From assembly GCA_937981955.1 (NCBI GenBank), contig CALJNA010000048.1, forward strand, positions 1 through 64,000: DNA of 64,000 nucleotides. Reading direction: 5' to 3'. This document shows, piece after piece, positions 50,246 to 57,365 of this stretch (the first letter of the stretch is position 1; each line of letters opens with the position of its first letter). The stretch is from an uncultured Granulosicoccaceae bacterium (GTDB lineage Bacteria > Pseudomonadota > Gammaproteobacteria > Granulosicoccales > Granulosicoccaceae). A model generated the notes under the pieces. That model was not told where the DNA came from. It saw nothing but the letters and a program-made list of their open reading frames with translations, and made no database searches. Made by a program: the position numbers and the translations under genes.

Positions 50246-50863
50246 ATGACAGGCTCCATTCGAATAATGGTTTACAAATGGGCAGGCGCATGGGGCCCCT
50301 TCAAGGTATCTATTCCGTGTGGTGAGTGTGCGCTTACTGCCGATATCATCAAGGACACCATGCAGAACGAATTAGCCGGTATTCCCGTTGAACTGGAAAC
50401 CCGGGAGTGGCTTAGTGAGTGGTATCGACCGCTTGTCAAAGGTGGCTGGCACGCGCCGATAGTTCTGGTAGAAGGGAAGGTCGTCGGGCAGGGTGGTGCA
50501 TTGAATCGTGGTGTTTTAACTCAGGCAGTGGTTGAGCAACATGCCAAACGCGCGCCGATTGAAGGTAATCATGTTTTCGGCAAGGAAACATGCCCACACT
50601 GTGTACGCGCCAAAGCACATCTTGATCGTGCGGGTATCGACTATCAATACCGCGACGTTATCGCCAACCCGTTGGACCTTTACGAAATGCTGGCTCGCGT
50701 TAAGCCGATTGTTGGCCCTAAAACGCCGGTTACGGTTCCACAAATCTGGATTGATGGAAAATATGTTGGTGGTGCTGACGAGCTTGCCGCCATTGTTAAC
50801 GAACATGTTGACCCGAATCCAGATCGGGGTCAATGTTCAATATCTCCCGCCGCTGCCACTTGA
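50246..50863 (+). CDS. Two-domain redoxin (CGEC thioredoxin-like + CPHC glutaredoxin)
   Basis: A 205-residue cytosolic protein with two redox-type domains. The N-terminal half contains Cys25-Gly-Glu-Cys28 in SIPCGECALTADI and ends with HAPIVLVEGKVVGQGGAL, a thioredoxin-fold pattern. The C-terminal half is a glutaredoxin: Cys116-Pro-His-Cys119 in FGKETCPHCVRAKAHLD and TVPQIWIDGKYVGGADEL. It is divergent from the deaminase gene. A TATATT-like -10 is visible upstream near 50194. Such tandem proteins have no assigned role known to me. Confidence 0.85.
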   Translation: MTGSIRIMVYKWAGAWGPFKVSIPCGECALTADIIKDTMQNELAGIPVELETREWLSEWYRPLVKGGWHAPIVLVEGKVVGQGGALNRGVLTQAVVEQHAKRAPIEGNHVFGKETCPHCVRAKAHLDRAGIDYQYRDVIANPLDLYEMLARVKPIVGPKTPVTVPQIWIDGKYVGGADELAAIVNEHVDPNPDRGQCSISPAAAT

Positions 50864-50901: not shown

Positions 50902-51897
50902 ATGGCAGCAAACACCAACACAATTCCAAAACCGGTATTGGCCGACATAAAGTCTGGTCTGAATGCCAGCGATGTCTTCATTGAAAGCACGCTGCAAGAG
51001 CTTTGGAGTGGCTACGGCTACATTGTTCGATTACGAATAGCCGGTGCACCTGTTAACACAGCCATATTGAAGCTGATCAATCCACCGCAACAAACGCAAC
51101 ACCCCCGGGGCTGGAATACCAGCGACTCGCACCAGCGAAAATTGCGTTCCTATCAAGTTGAATCGCACTGGTATGAACACTTAGCCCAACAGTGTAACGA
51201 CAGTTGCAAAGTCCCGGAAGTGATTAAGTCTGGGCGCACTGCTACATATCAGTGGATTCTGATGGAAGATTTGAGCGAACGTTATCCCCGTCTTGCGTCC
51301 AGCTTGAGTGTGTCACAGGCGAAAGTCTGTCTTGGCTGGTTAGCCGCTTTTCATGCCAGATTTTTTCAGTGTAAGCCTGACGGATTATGGTCGGTCGGTA
51401 CATATTGGCACCTGGATACGCGACACGAAGAGTGGCAAAGCATGCCGCCGGGTCCGCTTAAAACCCATGCAGCTGAACTCGATAAAAAGCTAAGTGGCTG
51501 CGGATATCAGACTCTGGTTCATGGTGATGCAAAGGTAGCGAATTTCTGCTTTACCAAGACTATGGATCATGTGGCTGCGGTGGACTTTCAATACGTGGGT
51601 GGCGGAGTTGGGATAAAAGATGTTGCTTACTTCCTGGGTAGCTGTCTTGATGAAGATGCTATTGAGCAATACGAATCAGAACTATTGTCGCACTACTTTC
51701 GGACACTGCACGCACTCATATCCGCAACTCACGGGTCTGAAACGGCCGGGCTTGTCCAGGCGGAATGGTCTGCACTGTACGCCATAGCATGGACAGATTT
51801 TTATCGGTTTCTTGAAGGGTGGATGCCGGGTCACAAGAAAATTAATCGCTATACGCGACTGCTTGCTAACCAGGTGTTTGAACAGCTAATCGAATAA
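50902..51897 (+). CDS. Phosphotransferase of the ecdysteroid/CHK kinase-like family
   Basis: A 331-residue protein with a kinase-like fold. The catalytic loop is LVHGDAKVANFCF and the metal-binding segment is AVDFQYVGGGVGIKDVAYFLG, which resembles ecdysteroid-kinase-like and aminoglycoside phosphotransferase families. The N-terminus has YIVRLRIAGAPVNTAILKLI as the ATP-binding lobe. No signal peptide. It follows the redoxin gene by 38 bases and overlaps the convergent protease gene by twelve. The small-molecule substrate is unknown. Confidence 0.8.
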   Translation: MAANTNTIPKPVLADIKSGLNASDVFIESTLQELWSGYGYIVRLRIAGAPVNTAILKLINPPQQTQHPRGWNTSDSHQRKLRSYQVESHWYEHLAQQCNDSCKVPEVIKSGRTATYQWILMEDLSERYPRLASSLSVSQAKVCLGWLAAFHARFFQCKPDGLWSVGTYWHLDTRHEEWQSMPPGPLKTHAAELDKKLSGCGYQTLVHGDAKVANFCFTKTMDHVAAVDFQYVGGGVGIKDVAYFLGSCLDEDAIEQYESELLSHYFRTLHALISATHGSETAGLVQAEWSALYAIAWTDFYRFLEGWMPGHKKINRYTRLLANQVFEQLIE

Positions 51898-53817
51898 AAT
51901 CAACTGTTCCTTGGCATTACGTATTGCTGCTTCACACTGGGCCTGCTCAAGCGCTACGTTGCCAGGAGACGTTCTGGTTTGCATCAGGTTGTTGCTAATC
52001 TGAACATGCTCTCCTGAATTACTCAGCACATGAAACAGCTCGTGTGCCAATGCAATGCCTGCGTCCTGAATACCATTCATCAGCCACACGCTGTTTTGCA
52101 GCCATGGCCGGCGACGTGTATTACCACGACCGAAAGCCTCTCCGTCGAAGGGTGTCAGCATTCGCGTATCGCGTGCATAAAATACTTTAATCGGTTTGAA
52201 TTCGGTGTCATTGTCCAATGCCGAAATCAGTGTTTTGGCACCACCGGTTTCCAGGTCGCGTAAATAATTTGGAATGGACAACTCACTGATAGTGACCGAA
52301 TTCAGATTGATATTGCACTGCGAAAGAATTTCTTCGGCTTCAAGCAGACTTTGATTGATCAGCTCCTTGGACCACCCATCGTGTAATACAAACACGCTTA
52401 GAGGTAGCTTATAGACGCGAACTTCGGTTTCATCGGCTAATGGCTTTTCGCGGGTTAAGGTTTGTACTCCGAGCAGCTTGACTTCCAGTTTTTCATCGGC
52501 AAGCGGATCGGCGATGTAGCCGCCGCCAACATAGCGTGAGCTACCACCATCAGCAAAGCGTCGCGCGAACTCGTGTTTGAGTTCTGCTGCTGCCCACTTT
52601 GGATTGTCGCGCAGCATTCTGGCGGCCATGGCCATCGCTCGTGGCACGGCATAGCTGGAACCCGACGCAGTGATCTTTTCACCGTTGAAGTTGATAACGT
52701 CTTGCTCCTCGGCAGGCAGCATGTAATCAACTTTGCTGCGTCCCCAGTTAACTCGTTCCGCCGGAACAACGAAATCGTCGGCAGATGTCACCACCAGCAA
52801 ATTCTCCAAATCGAGTGATGCCGGGTAAACGGGTTGCTGATCTATGTTACGTCCATTGTTCCCAGCAGATGAAATGAACAGAATATCCGGATGTTGTGCG
52901 GCTGCATTTTCAAATGCTGTCCACTGATCGGCCTTATTTCCCCCAAGTGGTAAACCGATAATGCGCACATTGTTTTCGCTCGCGTGTTCGATCAGTGTCT
53001 GCATGCGAGACATGTCAGGTCTTGGGTAACGGTAGGGCACCAGATCGACAAAAGGTGCTTCTCGTAACAGCAGTGACGCGGTACCCGTGCCATGGCGCGT
53101 AATTCGAAATGGAGTGGGGCCGAAGTGATAATCGAAAGGGCGATGATCGTTTTCCCAGAAATCGTAGCCAACCAGTTCACCGTCCTGGTCGCGCGCCAGA
53201 CGTGTATTTATCTGTGGCAGGGTATAGTTGATACCGGAGTCGACCATAGCGACACGGATTCGGTCAGTGTCAGCACTGATTTTACTGCTCGCAGGTAGCG
53301 GCGGGTTCAGAAGCTCACGACTCAGGATATCGCCCGTGTCAGGGTCGATAATCTGCAGTTCGCTTGCACGTTGCTTTTCATCGTAGGCAAGGCGCCTGTG
53401 TTGCAGCATCTGGCAGTCCGCATCAAAAACCAATTGGGAACGCGGCAGGTTGTTTTCACTGGTTTCTATTTGCATAGAAGACAGGCCAGCCACAGTTTCA
53501 AGCGTCGTCCAGACGATATTGATGCCGGACACCGTGGTGCCGCTAAGACGATTGCCGGTAAGTCCGCGTGGGTTGGTGTACGGCTCGCTCAGCACACTGT
53601 CGGCTAGTAAGGTGTTTTTTTGATCTATTGGCCAGATTGGAGCCAGATCATCCTTAATGGCGGAACAGCTGGCAGTTGCAGTCGCCGCTGCATGCATTTC
53701 GATGGCTGGAGCGTCGCTGTTTTCGGCGGCTTGAACAAAAACCGGGCTTGACGCCACAACAGTAAGCGTTGAGAGAAAAAGCTGCCTGAGCCTGCTTGAA
53801 CTGTGTATTACAGCCAA
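51886..53817 (-). CDS. Exported subtilisin fused to a C-terminal HExxH domain
   Basis: A 643-residue secreted or periplasmic protein with an N-terminal signal peptide (LFLSTLTVVASSPVFVQAA). The S8 domain is complete: Asp193 in AMVDSGINY, His242 in RHGTGTA, Asn320 in SSAGN and Ser388 in SGSSYAVP. After residue 450 a second domain holds AHELFHVLSNSGEH (HExxH at 592-596, third His at 604) and NLM, like a zinc metalloprotease with a Met-turn-like end. The whole could be a dual-mechanism peptidase or a protease with a metal-dependent accessory domain. It is alone on the minus strand between unrelated genes. Confidence 0.85.
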   Translation of the reverse strand: MAVIHSSSRLRQLFLSTLTVVASSPVFVQAAENSDAPAIEMHAAATATASCSAIKDDLAPIWPIDQKNTLLADSVLSEPYTNPRGLTGNRLSGTTVSGINIVWTTLETVAGLSSMQIETSENNLPRSQLVFDADCQMLQHRRLAYDEKQRASELQIIDPDTGDILSRELLNPPLPASSKISADTDRIRVAMVDSGINYTLPQINTRLARDQDGELVGYDFWENDHRPFDYHFGPTPFRITRHGTGTASLLLREAPFVDLVPYRYPRPDMSRMQTLIEHASENNVRIIGLPLGGNKADQWTAFENAAAQHPDILFISSAGNNGRNIDQQPVYPASLDLENLLVVTSADDFVVPAERVNWGRSKVDYMLPAEEQDVINFNGEKITASGSSYAVPRAMAMAARMLRDNPKWAAAELKHEFARRFADGGSSRYVGGGYIADPLADEKLEVKLLGVQTLTREKPLADETEVRVYKLPLSVFVLHDGWSKELINQSLLEAEEILSQCNINLNSVTISELSIPNYLRDLETGGAKTLISALDNDTEFKPIKVFYARDTRMLTPFDGEAFGRGNTRRRPWLQNSVWLMNGIQDAGIALAHELFHVLSNSGEHVQISNNLMQTRTSPGNVALEQAQCEAAIRNAKEQLILFD

Positions 53818-54050
53818 CGTCAGTTCCTTTGATTATTATTGTTTGAGACCGAAGCTATAAACATTGTAATCCAACTTTAACCCGAGAACCCACAGATTGA
53901 TATTAGATCGGTTACGGACAATTAGTCGATAAATTGACACATACGGGTTAGTTGATTTAGCGGAACACGGCTCAAAACCGCGTTCTGTGGCCATTTTCTT
54001 GCATCTTTCGCAGCTAATCGTGGCCAGTCCTGAACAGGGAATCTGGCTTT

Positions 54051-57000
54051 GTGCAAAGGCCAATCTACAAGAGTTCCGAACCGGGTTACATGTCAGCATC
54101 GTTTTCCAGGGGATTTCTCCTCCAAAGCAAGATTCGATCTGTGCTCAGGCGTGGCAAACGGGCTTCTGCCCGGATTACGCACGTTGGACGTCTTCGTGCA
54201 AAGCTGCTCAAGAAAAGCCGATTTCTGCGTCGGCGACTTACCGGTAAATTAATCAACGGTCCGCGAACGCTTGCCGACAACATCAGGTTTTTTGCCAATC
54301 CGGGTCCGCAATTCGAACAAGCCGATCAACTGGACGCGACATACTTGCGTTCCAGGGCACGCACCATCGCGTTTTACCTGCCGCAATTTCATGCGTTTGA
54401 AGAGAATGATCAGTGGTGGGGTGAAGGGTTCACCGAATGGCGAAATGTAGCTCGTGGTGCCCCGCGATTCAAAGGTCACTACCAGCCGCGTATTCCGCGG
54501 GATCTCGGTTTCTATGATCTGAGTGATATCGACACCATCAAAGCGCAATGCGCTTTGGCAAAACATAATGGTATTGATGCTTTCTGTTTTTATTACTACT
54601 GGTTCAATGGCAAACGGTTGATGGAGAAACCGCTTGATCTGCTGGCTAAATCCGATATTGATCAGGATTTTTGCATTATGTGGGCGAATGAGAACTGGAC
54701 TCGGACCTGGGATGGTCTTGAAAATGATGTGTTGATCAAACAGGATTATCTTGATGAGCACGAGGATGAGTTCATTGCTGATACCGGCGCTTACATGGCC
54801 GACCCGCGATACGTTCGCGTTAATGGACAGCCTCTGTTCATCCTTTATCGACCAGGATTGCTGCCAGAACCAGCAGCGACGATCGAACGATGGCGAAAAA
54901 AGTGGACACGCCTGTTGGGCGAAACGCCCCTGATCATGATGGTTCAGGGTTTCGGTGAAGAAGACCCTCGTGCGTTTGGTCTTGATGGCGCTGTTGAATT
55001 TCCTCCACACAAGGTTTGTGCAGGACTGAAAAACATCAATGATCGTTGTCAGGTACTGGATTCGAATTTCAAGGGGCTGGTACGTGATTACGCCGATGTG
55101 GTTAACAAGTCGCTCGATGAGCCGGTGCCTGATTTTCCACTGATAAAAACCGTTTCACCACATTGGGATAACGATGCTCGCAGGGAAGGGTGTGGCATGA
55201 CCATGCATGGGTCAACACCAGCCTTGTATGAGAAGTGGCTAAACGGCGCGATTGAGTATGCCGTTGAACATCCTGTTGAGCAGGAGTCGCTGGTGTTTAT
55301 CAACGCTTGGAACGAATGGGCCGAAGGTGCTTATCTGGAGCCAGACGTGCACTTTGGTCACGCTTATTTGAATGCGACCAAGCGTGCGGTGTGTGGCCTG
55401 CCGGCATCTGCTGAATTCAACCGAATTTTACTTGTAGGGCATGATGCGCATAGGCACGGCGCGCAAATGCTGTTGCTTAATATGGCGAAAATCTACAAGC
55501 AACAGTTTGGTATGCAAGTCACCATTGCCTTGAAAGAAGGCGGACCGCTAGTGACTGAATATCAAAAAATAACGCAAACGGTGCTGCTGGATAAGCTGGG
55601 TAAGAACGGCTTGTCAAAATGGCTCCAGCGGCATCAGTTTTCAGCGGCTATTTGTAACACAACAGTGACAGGTGATCTTGTATCTGTGCTGCGACGCTCT
55701 GGTGTGCAGGTGGTTTCCCTGATACATGAAATGCCGCATTTGATTAAAGACTACCAGTTGGAAGCGCAGGTTCGCTTAATTGCGAACAAGGCGAACCATG
55801 TGGTATTCCCTGCCAAAACCGTATTCGACGGATTCACGCAATTCACCGAATCGTTTCAGGCTAATGCAGTCATTAAGCCGCAAGGTACTTACTCAAGTGT
55901 TGTATTTAATCATGATGATCGAGCAGATATAAGAGATTCATTGGGTATCAAAGCTTCTGACAAAGTCGTGCTCGGTGTTGGGTATGCAGACTTGCGCAAG
56001 GGTTTTGATCTTTTTATGGATACGGCTCGTCGCAGCGTTCGACACAACGATAATGTGCATTTTGTCTGGGCGGGTGCTGTTTCGGCGGATATGAAGCGTT
56101 GGATTCAGACTGACTTTTCTCCGCAATCAGACGCTGCGCATAGTGGCCGGAAGCAGATCCATATCGTCGGATTTACCGACAACATGACGGGTTTCTATTC
56201 CGCTGCTGATGTACTATTTTTGCCCTCACGGGAAGACCCATATCCAACAGTTGTGCTCGAAGCCATGAATGTTGGATTACCGGTGGTGCTTTTCCGTGGC
56301 ACAACTGGGTTCGATTCGCTGATGGACACTTACGGCTATCTGGTTGAGCTTGGCGACAATCAGGCGCTTGATGAGGCGTTCGCCCGCGCGCTGAATGAGC
56401 CAGGCAGCGAAGCAGGTGATCGCCGGATTGCTTATGTTGAAACGCATTGCCGTTTCGATAGTTACTGTTTCGATTTACTAAAACTGCTTCATCCAAAGCT
56501 GCAACAGGTTTCCGTTACCATTCCAAACTACAACTATGCTCAGTACATTGAGCAGAGGCTAAGTTCGATTTTTGCTCAGAACTATCCGGTATTTGAAGTT
56601 GTTTTGCTCGATGATAACTCAGACGATATCAGTATCCCTATTGCCAAACGCTATGCCAGACGGTCCGGTCGCACTCTGTCAATAGTGCGTAATAAAGAAA
56701 ACAGCGGTAGTGTATTTAGTCAATGGCATCAGGCATCTGCTGTCAGTCGCGGTAATCTGCTTTGGATAGCAGAGGCTGATGATAGTGCCGATATCAATTT
56801 TCTGAGCAAACTGGTTGGGGCGTTTACTGAACAGACCAGCATGGCATTTTGTGATTCGTCGCAAATTGGTGCGCACGGCGAACACCTTTCTCGCAGTTAT
56901 AAACACTACTTTTCCAAAATACATCCAAATTTGTTTAACAAGGATTTCGTCGTTTCCGGAACTGAATTCTGCTCTTCCGCCTTGTCCGTCAGGAATGTCA

Positions 57001-57365
57001 TTCTGAATGTCAGTTCTGTTATCTGGAACAGAAATCAGTTGTACACTTGTATGCACTCGTTGCAAGATCAGCTAAGTGAACATGCTCTGGTGGGTGACTG
57101 GTTAATATACCTTAAACTTCTCAACACTCCGGGAACATCATTGTCATATGTGTCTGATGCGTTGAACACACACCGGCGACACGCAACGTCGGTAACTCAC
57201 ACGCTGGACAATGGCCGTCATTTGCAGGAAATCGAAGCGATGCACCGGCTTATTGAAGCCGAAATTCAGATCGATACAGACATACAGCTTCTTATGCGAG
57301 AGTATATAAACGAGTTGTCGGCGCAATTTGATGAAGAGTTGCCAGAACTGGACAGGGCCGCGTAA
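54051..57365 (+). CDS. Giant WbsX-GT4-GT2 glycosyltransferase
   Basis: A 1104-residue protein with three domains. Residues about 105-460 form a WbsX-type (GH99-like) domain, with ARTIAFYLPQFHAFEENDQW, CFYYYWFNGKRLMEKP and WANENWTRTWDG. Residues about 460-810 form a GT-B glycosyltransferase (GT4-like) with VLGVGYADLRKGFDLF and FLPSREDPYPTVVLEAMNVG. The last 270 residues are a GT2 domain with VTIPNYNYAQYIEQRLSS and WIAEADD. The basic N-terminus has no export signal. It probably assembles a surface polysaccharide, with two GT2 genes just downstream. GTG at 54051 is the start given; ATG at 54090 is an alternative. Confidence 0.85.
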   Translation: MQRPIYKSSEPGYMSASFSRGFLLQSKIRSVLRRGKRASARITHVGRLRAKLLKKSRFLRRRLTGKLINGPRTLADNIRFFANPGPQFEQADQLDATYLRSRARTIAFYLPQFHAFEENDQWWGEGFTEWRNVARGAPRFKGHYQPRIPRDLGFYDLSDIDTIKAQCALAKHNGIDAFCFYYYWFNGKRLMEKPLDLLAKSDIDQDFCIMWANENWTRTWDGLENDVLIKQDYLDEHEDEFIADTGAYMADPRYVRVNGQPLFILYRPGLLPEPAATIERWRKKWTRLLGETPLIMMVQGFGEEDPRAFGLDGAVEFPPHKVCAGLKNINDRCQVLDSNFKGLVRDYADVVNKSLDEPVPDFPLIKTVSPHWDNDARREGCGMTMHGSTPALYEKWLNGAIEYAVEHPVEQESLVFINAWNEWAEGAYLEPDVHFGHAYLNATKRAVCGLPASAEFNRILLVGHDAHRHGAQMLLLNMAKIYKQQFGMQVTIALKEGGPLVTEYQKITQTVLLDKLGKNGLSKWLQRHQFSAAICNTTVTGDLVSVLRRSGVQVVSLIHEMPHLIKDYQLEAQVRLIANKANHVVFPAKTVFDGFTQFTESFQANAVIKPQGTYSSVVFNHDDRADIRDSLGIKASDKVVLGVGYADLRKGFDLFMDTARRSVRHNDNVHFVWAGAVSADMKRWIQTDFSPQSDAAHSGRKQIHIVGFTDNMTGFYSAADVLFLPSREDPYPTVVLEAMNVGLPVVLFRGTTGFDSLMDTYGYLVELGDNQALDEAFARALNEPGSEAGDRRIAYVETHCRFDSYCFDLLKLLHPKLQQVSVTIPNYNYAQYIEQRLSSIFAQNYPVFEVVLLDDNSDDISIPIAKRYARRSGRTLSIVRNKENSGSVFSQWHQASAVSRGNLLWIAEADDSADINFLSKLVGAFTEQTSMAFCDSSQIGAHGEHLSRSYKHYFSKIHPNLFNKDFVVSGTEFCSSALSVRNVILNVSSVIWNRNQLYTCMHSLQDQLSEHALVGDWLIYLKLLNTPGTSLSYVSDALNTHRRHATSVTHTLDNGRHLQEIEAMHRLIEAEIQIDTDIQLLMREYINELSAQFDEELPELDRAA

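Follow-up and report, generated by a model that had tools for sequence, protein, structure and literature searches.

The 64,000-nt stretch analysed here (the window; positions 1 to 64,000 of contig CALJNA010000048.1, forward strand, from an uncultured Granulosicoccaceae bacterium) carries on its minus strand a TTG-started gene (51886..53817, stop codon counted in) for a 643-aa protein, which is probably an exported protease with two heads, an S8 serine protease and a C-terminal zinc protease, united in one enzyme. The subtilisin-type head would cut proteins via its Asp-His-Ser triad, and the metzincin-like head would do so with zinc held by His592, His596 and His604 and with Glu593 as the general base. 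Computation shows the two domains, their modelled folds, the strict conservation of either site and the co-inheritance as a single frame; we infer the signal peptide, the binding of zinc, catalytic activity of both heads, and a common substrate or sequential action. The main argument for two proteases is that Ser388 and Glu593 are invariant, with no evident role besides catalysis. Serine and metallo proteases are usually encoded as distinct proteins. A conserved polypeptide bearing the two active sites, if true, would be a natural coupling of two chemistries, and would make the activation of one head by the other testable.

The Peptidase_S8 catalytic domain (residues 187-431, 52525..53259; all features of the gene are on the minus strand) was recognised by Pfam with an E-value of 5e-15, above the cut-off, and adopts the subtilisin fold in the predicted model. 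Catalytic Asp193 (53239..53241) and His242 (53092..53094), oxyanion Asn320, and catalytic Ser388 (52654..52656) follow in this order and are invariant in the relatives wherever the sequences reach them. When repeats were removed, the 105 collected sequences were reduced to a non-redundant set of 77, in which the triad positions are kept in 62/62, 63/63 and 64/64 sequences. The complete S8 domain described in the sequence-only reading was thereby borne out, with correct residue numbers. The other Pfam match in the protein was to DUF6305, sub-threshold and inside the S8 region, and the NCBIfam scan returned S8-type matches under their cut-offs. The closest known systems for this part are the S8 subtilases deseasin MCP-01, Plasmodium SUB1, thermitase and subtilisin BPN'. 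In contrast to these, the present family keeps the Pro of the GTSxAxP motif in 20/64 sequences only, with frequent substitutions, no inhibitor-I9 propeptide was matched by Pfam in the window protein, and the S8 subfamily was always joined to the zinc domain in the genomes sampled. A second, ordinary-looking S8 protease is encoded in the same genome (G000:C30:29882-30823, locus L001; 579-aa frame, Pfam S8 E-value 1.8e-57).

The zinc domain (residues 471-643, 51889..52407) contains the motif HELFHVLSNSGEH (HExxHx7H; residues 592-604, 52006..52044), followed by NLM (residues 610-612, 51982..51990) as Met-turn candidate. His592, Glu593, His596 and His604 are kept in 76/76 readable sequences as well as in divergent lipoprotein-like proteins, and the HExxHx7H spacing was found in 76/77, the remaining sequence being broken by unread bases. 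The Met is present in 73/76, Cys501 (52315..52317) in 73/73 sequences reaching the position, and Cys628 (51934..51936) in 76/76; the two cysteines probably form a disulfide. Because of this conservation in relatives, the earlier observation of a separate C-terminal HExxH domain with NLM on the same chain as S8 is confirmed, residues as numbered, and the third His indeed lies, at His604, 12 residues after the first and not at the metzincin 10. That no relatives would keep the motif, which had been named as the finding to overturn the idea, proved false. The 69 named loci were partly chosen on HExxH, and its conservation in L030-L098 is partly selected because one of the two search peptide patterns covered the HExxH helix; the third His, the Met and the Cys are outside both patterns, and free of that selection are the 24 fused sequences of the whole-protein search, in which triad, oxyanion Asn, the four zinc-site residues, Cys501 and Cys628 are all invariant.

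In the model, which was predicted without zinc, residues 586-599 form a confidently predicted helix that includes HExxH. The overall fold is of the metzincin type, having a sheet, a backing helix, an active-site helix and a helix at the C-terminus. A motif lying outside a zinc-binding helix, the other outcome named against the idea, is thus not what the model predicts. The 50 fold-search matches listed are by title all metzincin metalloproteinases or relatives, and families not appearing in the lists are not thereby counted out. For the second domain the roles of a second protease, a self-processing module and a structural zinc domain had been left side by side; the predicted fold and the invariant Glu593 favour the second protease, with self-processing as a possible, unproven role.

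The S8 family is well known. Its partner, the zinc domain, appears to represent a metzincin-like family that is new and lacks annotation. Nothing exceeded the Pfam cut-off in the C-terminal part of the window protein. In Pfam, DUF5700, a "putative zinc dependent peptidase", was matched weakly in 33 of 66 zinc-domain members (best E-value 0.0012), scoring 11.6 bits (cut-off 25) in the window member over a 28-residue stretch at the HExxH helix. Reprolysin profiles gave no match in the window member, a match at E-value 0.027 in 1/66 members, and one under the cut-off in the divergent relative L175. Compared with adamalysins/reprolysins (M12B), the zinc domain shows about 8-14% identity among the matches listed, these being below Pfam cut-offs, has its third His at +12 and not +10, and is without the Gly seven residues after the first His. 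Motif spacing differs also from the lower pappalysins of M43 (ulilysin, mirolysin, cytophagalysin); the Peptidase_M43 profile was found in 0/57 genomes at E-value 0.001, the window's own genome included, and is absent among the best 25 of 30 Pfam families listed for zinc-domain members. Metzincins are defined by the extended motif HEXXHXXGXXH/D (PMC6949598) or HEXXHXXGXXH (PMC7542363), and the M64 igalysins are counted as metzincins despite their off-consensus HEXXHXXXGXXD (PMC12402451). As far as these motif descriptions go, the igalysin motif is longer by one residue and has Asp in the third ligand position, whereas that of the zinc domain here is longer by two and has His. As igalysins already provide an example of a stretched motif, off-consensus spacing does not seem to exclude catalysis. 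If zinc-binding, the stretched motif would broaden the accepted definition of metzincins, and it may account for the annotation profiles missing the domain. The claim that no established family combines S8 with such a domain held within Pfam, NCBIfam and the portions of open-licence PMC literature searched, where neither an S8-metzincin fusion nor the literal string HEXXHXXXXXXXH was found; relative to these sources the pairing would be new.

Relatives were collected by searches of genome contigs, which returned none with the single protein and 69 loci with alignment A1, all Pseudomonadota by title and many Granulosicoccus or Granulosicoccaceae, which suggests that the window belongs in or close to that group. 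The whole-protein search found matches in 28 of 57 genomes, i.e. 24 fused sequences (own included), one zinc-only and three weak S8 only. In G049 the C-terminal zinc domain occurs alone in a 234-aa frame, which has the zinc residues and both Cys in common with the fused proteins. With an S8-only profile (counted at E-value ≤1e-30 in both the family and class samples), 34/48 family genomes had a match, and the zinc-domain profile found 37/48, namely those 34 (same contig, equal frame length) and three divergent proteins. Of the class sample, 8/369 genomes had an S8 match, three of them of the window's genus, and all eight had the zinc domain as well; the zinc domain was matched in 11/369, comprising those eight, the standalone proteins of G049 and G122, and one borderline match (E-value 0.0098). 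In these searches of family and class samples, every S8-subfamily member observed was accompanied by the zinc domain, while zinc domains can also occur by themselves. The zinc-domain match in G686 spans a TGA, which is the ordinary gene end downstream of an intact motif. In the phylum sample the zinc domain was present in 1/299 genomes, the window's own, and among plasmids 10 records matched weakly, 8 of them listed, none reaching 80% query coverage.

Among 72 zinc domains, 63 were fused and nine standalone, six of the latter from Betaproteobacteria or Burkholderiales records. A quick tree of these 72 rows implied at least two changes between fused and standalone states, only one of which is forced by well-supported branches; L095-L098, fragments or broken by unread bases, were excluded from the tree and from alignment A2, and alignment A3 consisted of 54 fused named loci and the window, excluding frames cut by contig ends. 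The identities of the S8 and zinc domains correlate (Mantel r 0.82, 59 sequences). From domain co-occurrence, tree and identity correlation we infer an old fusion and joint inheritance of the domains.

Three genomes of the window's family without the S8 subfamily encode divergent zinc-domain relatives, lipoprotein-like as read by eye (L175:2671-3405, L176:3139-4032, L177:2807-3502), with 18-20% identity to the window protein. They keep equivalents of Cys501, Trp578, His592, Glu593, His596, His604, Asn610, Met612, Gln627 and Cys628 at the same spacing, and because His604 is kept although the Gly at 602 is changed, it is supported as a likely real ligand. The existence of standalone and of lipoprotein-like forms suggests a wider zinc-domain family that lacks annotation. 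Each of the three genes adjoins a TPR/sulfotransferase-like gene (label read by eye).

Several results weigh against a two-headed protease with a metzincin-like second head. Among the 66 zinc-domain members, no Pfam match was better than E-value 0.0012; NCBIfam gave scattered names, the best of them (E-value 0.00038) an unrelated one, with HtpX matched in five members at best with 0.0026. The motif HExxHx7H is two residues longer than the metzincin consensus. Profile-profile comparison (hhalign) with 17 bacterial Reprolysin_4 domains (motif read in 20/25 loci, 17 of which entered alignment A4) resulted in a probability of 8% with the zinc motif unaligned, and since this comparison was weak, homology to bacterial reprolysins is not claimed. 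The fold neighbours include ADAM22, which is not known to be an active protease, so that the fold by itself is no proof of catalysis. No conserved operon partner pointing to a substrate was seen among the loci compared, the neighbours differing between clades. The fusion gene is accessory, present in 18/27 sampled genomes of the genus and missing from 9/27, some of which are incomplete.

Cleavage of the linker by the S8 head, freeing or activating the zinc head, is plausible because the linker is variable and standalone zinc domains exist, and we give this step a real chance, although short of an even one. As an explanation of the whole protein it becomes a self-activating cascade, in which cleavage by the S8 head, either in the linker or in the head itself, releases a mature metzincin-like protease, the fusion serving activation and not joint attack on a substrate; this we consider possible but less likely than not. 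The linker is modelled with less confidence, and the distance from the Ser motif to HExxH ranges over 196-233 residues in 45 sequences (14 escaped a stricter motif pattern, and frames that were cut or had no S8 part were left aside). The nine standalone rows of 72 indicate that the zinc domain can work without the S8 part, and metzincins can be zymogens that become active once a pro-segment is removed (PMC6949598). Against such a cascade, no conserved cleavage site was seen by eye in the linker in alignment A1, the predicted full-length model (pTM 0.88) suggests a settled domain arrangement, and the standalone forms have, by eye, little upstream of the zinc domain apart from the signal-peptide-like stretch. 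Only tentatively are the parts combined into one picture, that of an undescribed exported family with two active sites and a new metzincin-like HExxHx7H head, co-inherited across several gammaproteobacterial lineages, the serine head of which would mature or feed the zinc head within the molecule.

Subtilases frequently bear accessory C-terminal domains, and together with the off-consensus spacing and the presence of ADAM22 in the fold list this would fit an ordinary subtilase with a zinc domain that is only structural, substrate-binding or a dead peptidase fold. We consider that unlikely, as Glu593 is invariant in 76/76 sequences and in the three lipoprotein-like proteins, the predicted fold is of metzincin peptidase type, and the domain is also found by itself in a protein that looks exported. 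A novel family could have a novel substrate, and the zinc domain could be a hydrolase that is partnered with the protease and does not attack ordinary protein but, e.g., a peptidoglycan stem peptide; with metzincins and their relatives making up the listed fold matches, this is quite improbable. Chance occurrence of HExxH in a subtilase tail, or an annotation artefact, has a negligible likelihood: when the 643-aa protein was shuffled 20,000 times, HExxH alone arose in 1.4% of the shuffles, but HExxHx7H with Met 5-7 residues on in 0 of 20,000, and invariance in all readable sequences despite pairwise identities of the zinc domain as low as 26%, with the confident predicted fold, refutes it. The two-headed protease remains the favoured interpretation.

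The gene is preceded by a probable ribosome-binding site AAAGGA (53825..53830, 7 bases 5′ of TTG, read by eye). Residues 1-30 (53728..53817) are a probable signal peptide, judged by eye and of low pLDDT in the model, and on the basis of this stretch the protein is probably exported, being periplasmic or secreted. An N-terminal beta-rich domain with Cys51 and Cys135 (residues 46-170, 53308..53682) had no Pfam match in the scan of the window protein and belongs to long members only, short relatives of about 510 aa being without it. The variable linker between the S8 and zinc domains covers residues 440-470 (52408..52500), where pLDDT dips to 71.

The neighbours of the gene in the window are deaminase, glutaredoxin, EcKL kinase-like and WbsX/glycosyltransferase genes, and because neighbours differ between clades and in the window, they give no substrate. 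In one Granulosicoccus clade an HlyU-like small gene (label from a Pfam run on one member) is located just upstream on the same strand; in this cluster of 15 loci, 13 of 14 listed were <100 bases from the protease frame and one was 3.7 kb off. In L034, L045, L051 and L053 the HlyU-like stop codon opens the protease frame, i.e. the frames abut, with the first start 6-27 bases on. Another clade has purB and JmjC/cupin protein genes (read by eye), a GNAT gene and a CAP-protein gene (one Pfam check each). None of these genes adjoins the protease gene of the window. There, the convergent EcKL/APH-type kinase-like gene (50902-51897, plus strand) overlaps with its 3′ end the end of the protease gene by 12 bases. 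It is preceded by a gene (50246-50863, plus strand) for a 205-aa protein that ends in a glutaredoxin domain (Pfam) and has a CGEC motif in its N-terminal half, perhaps a second thioredoxin-like domain by eye. On the other side, 54051-57365 (plus strand) encodes a 1104-aa protein combining WbsX with group-1 and family-2 glycosyltransferase domains (Pfam).
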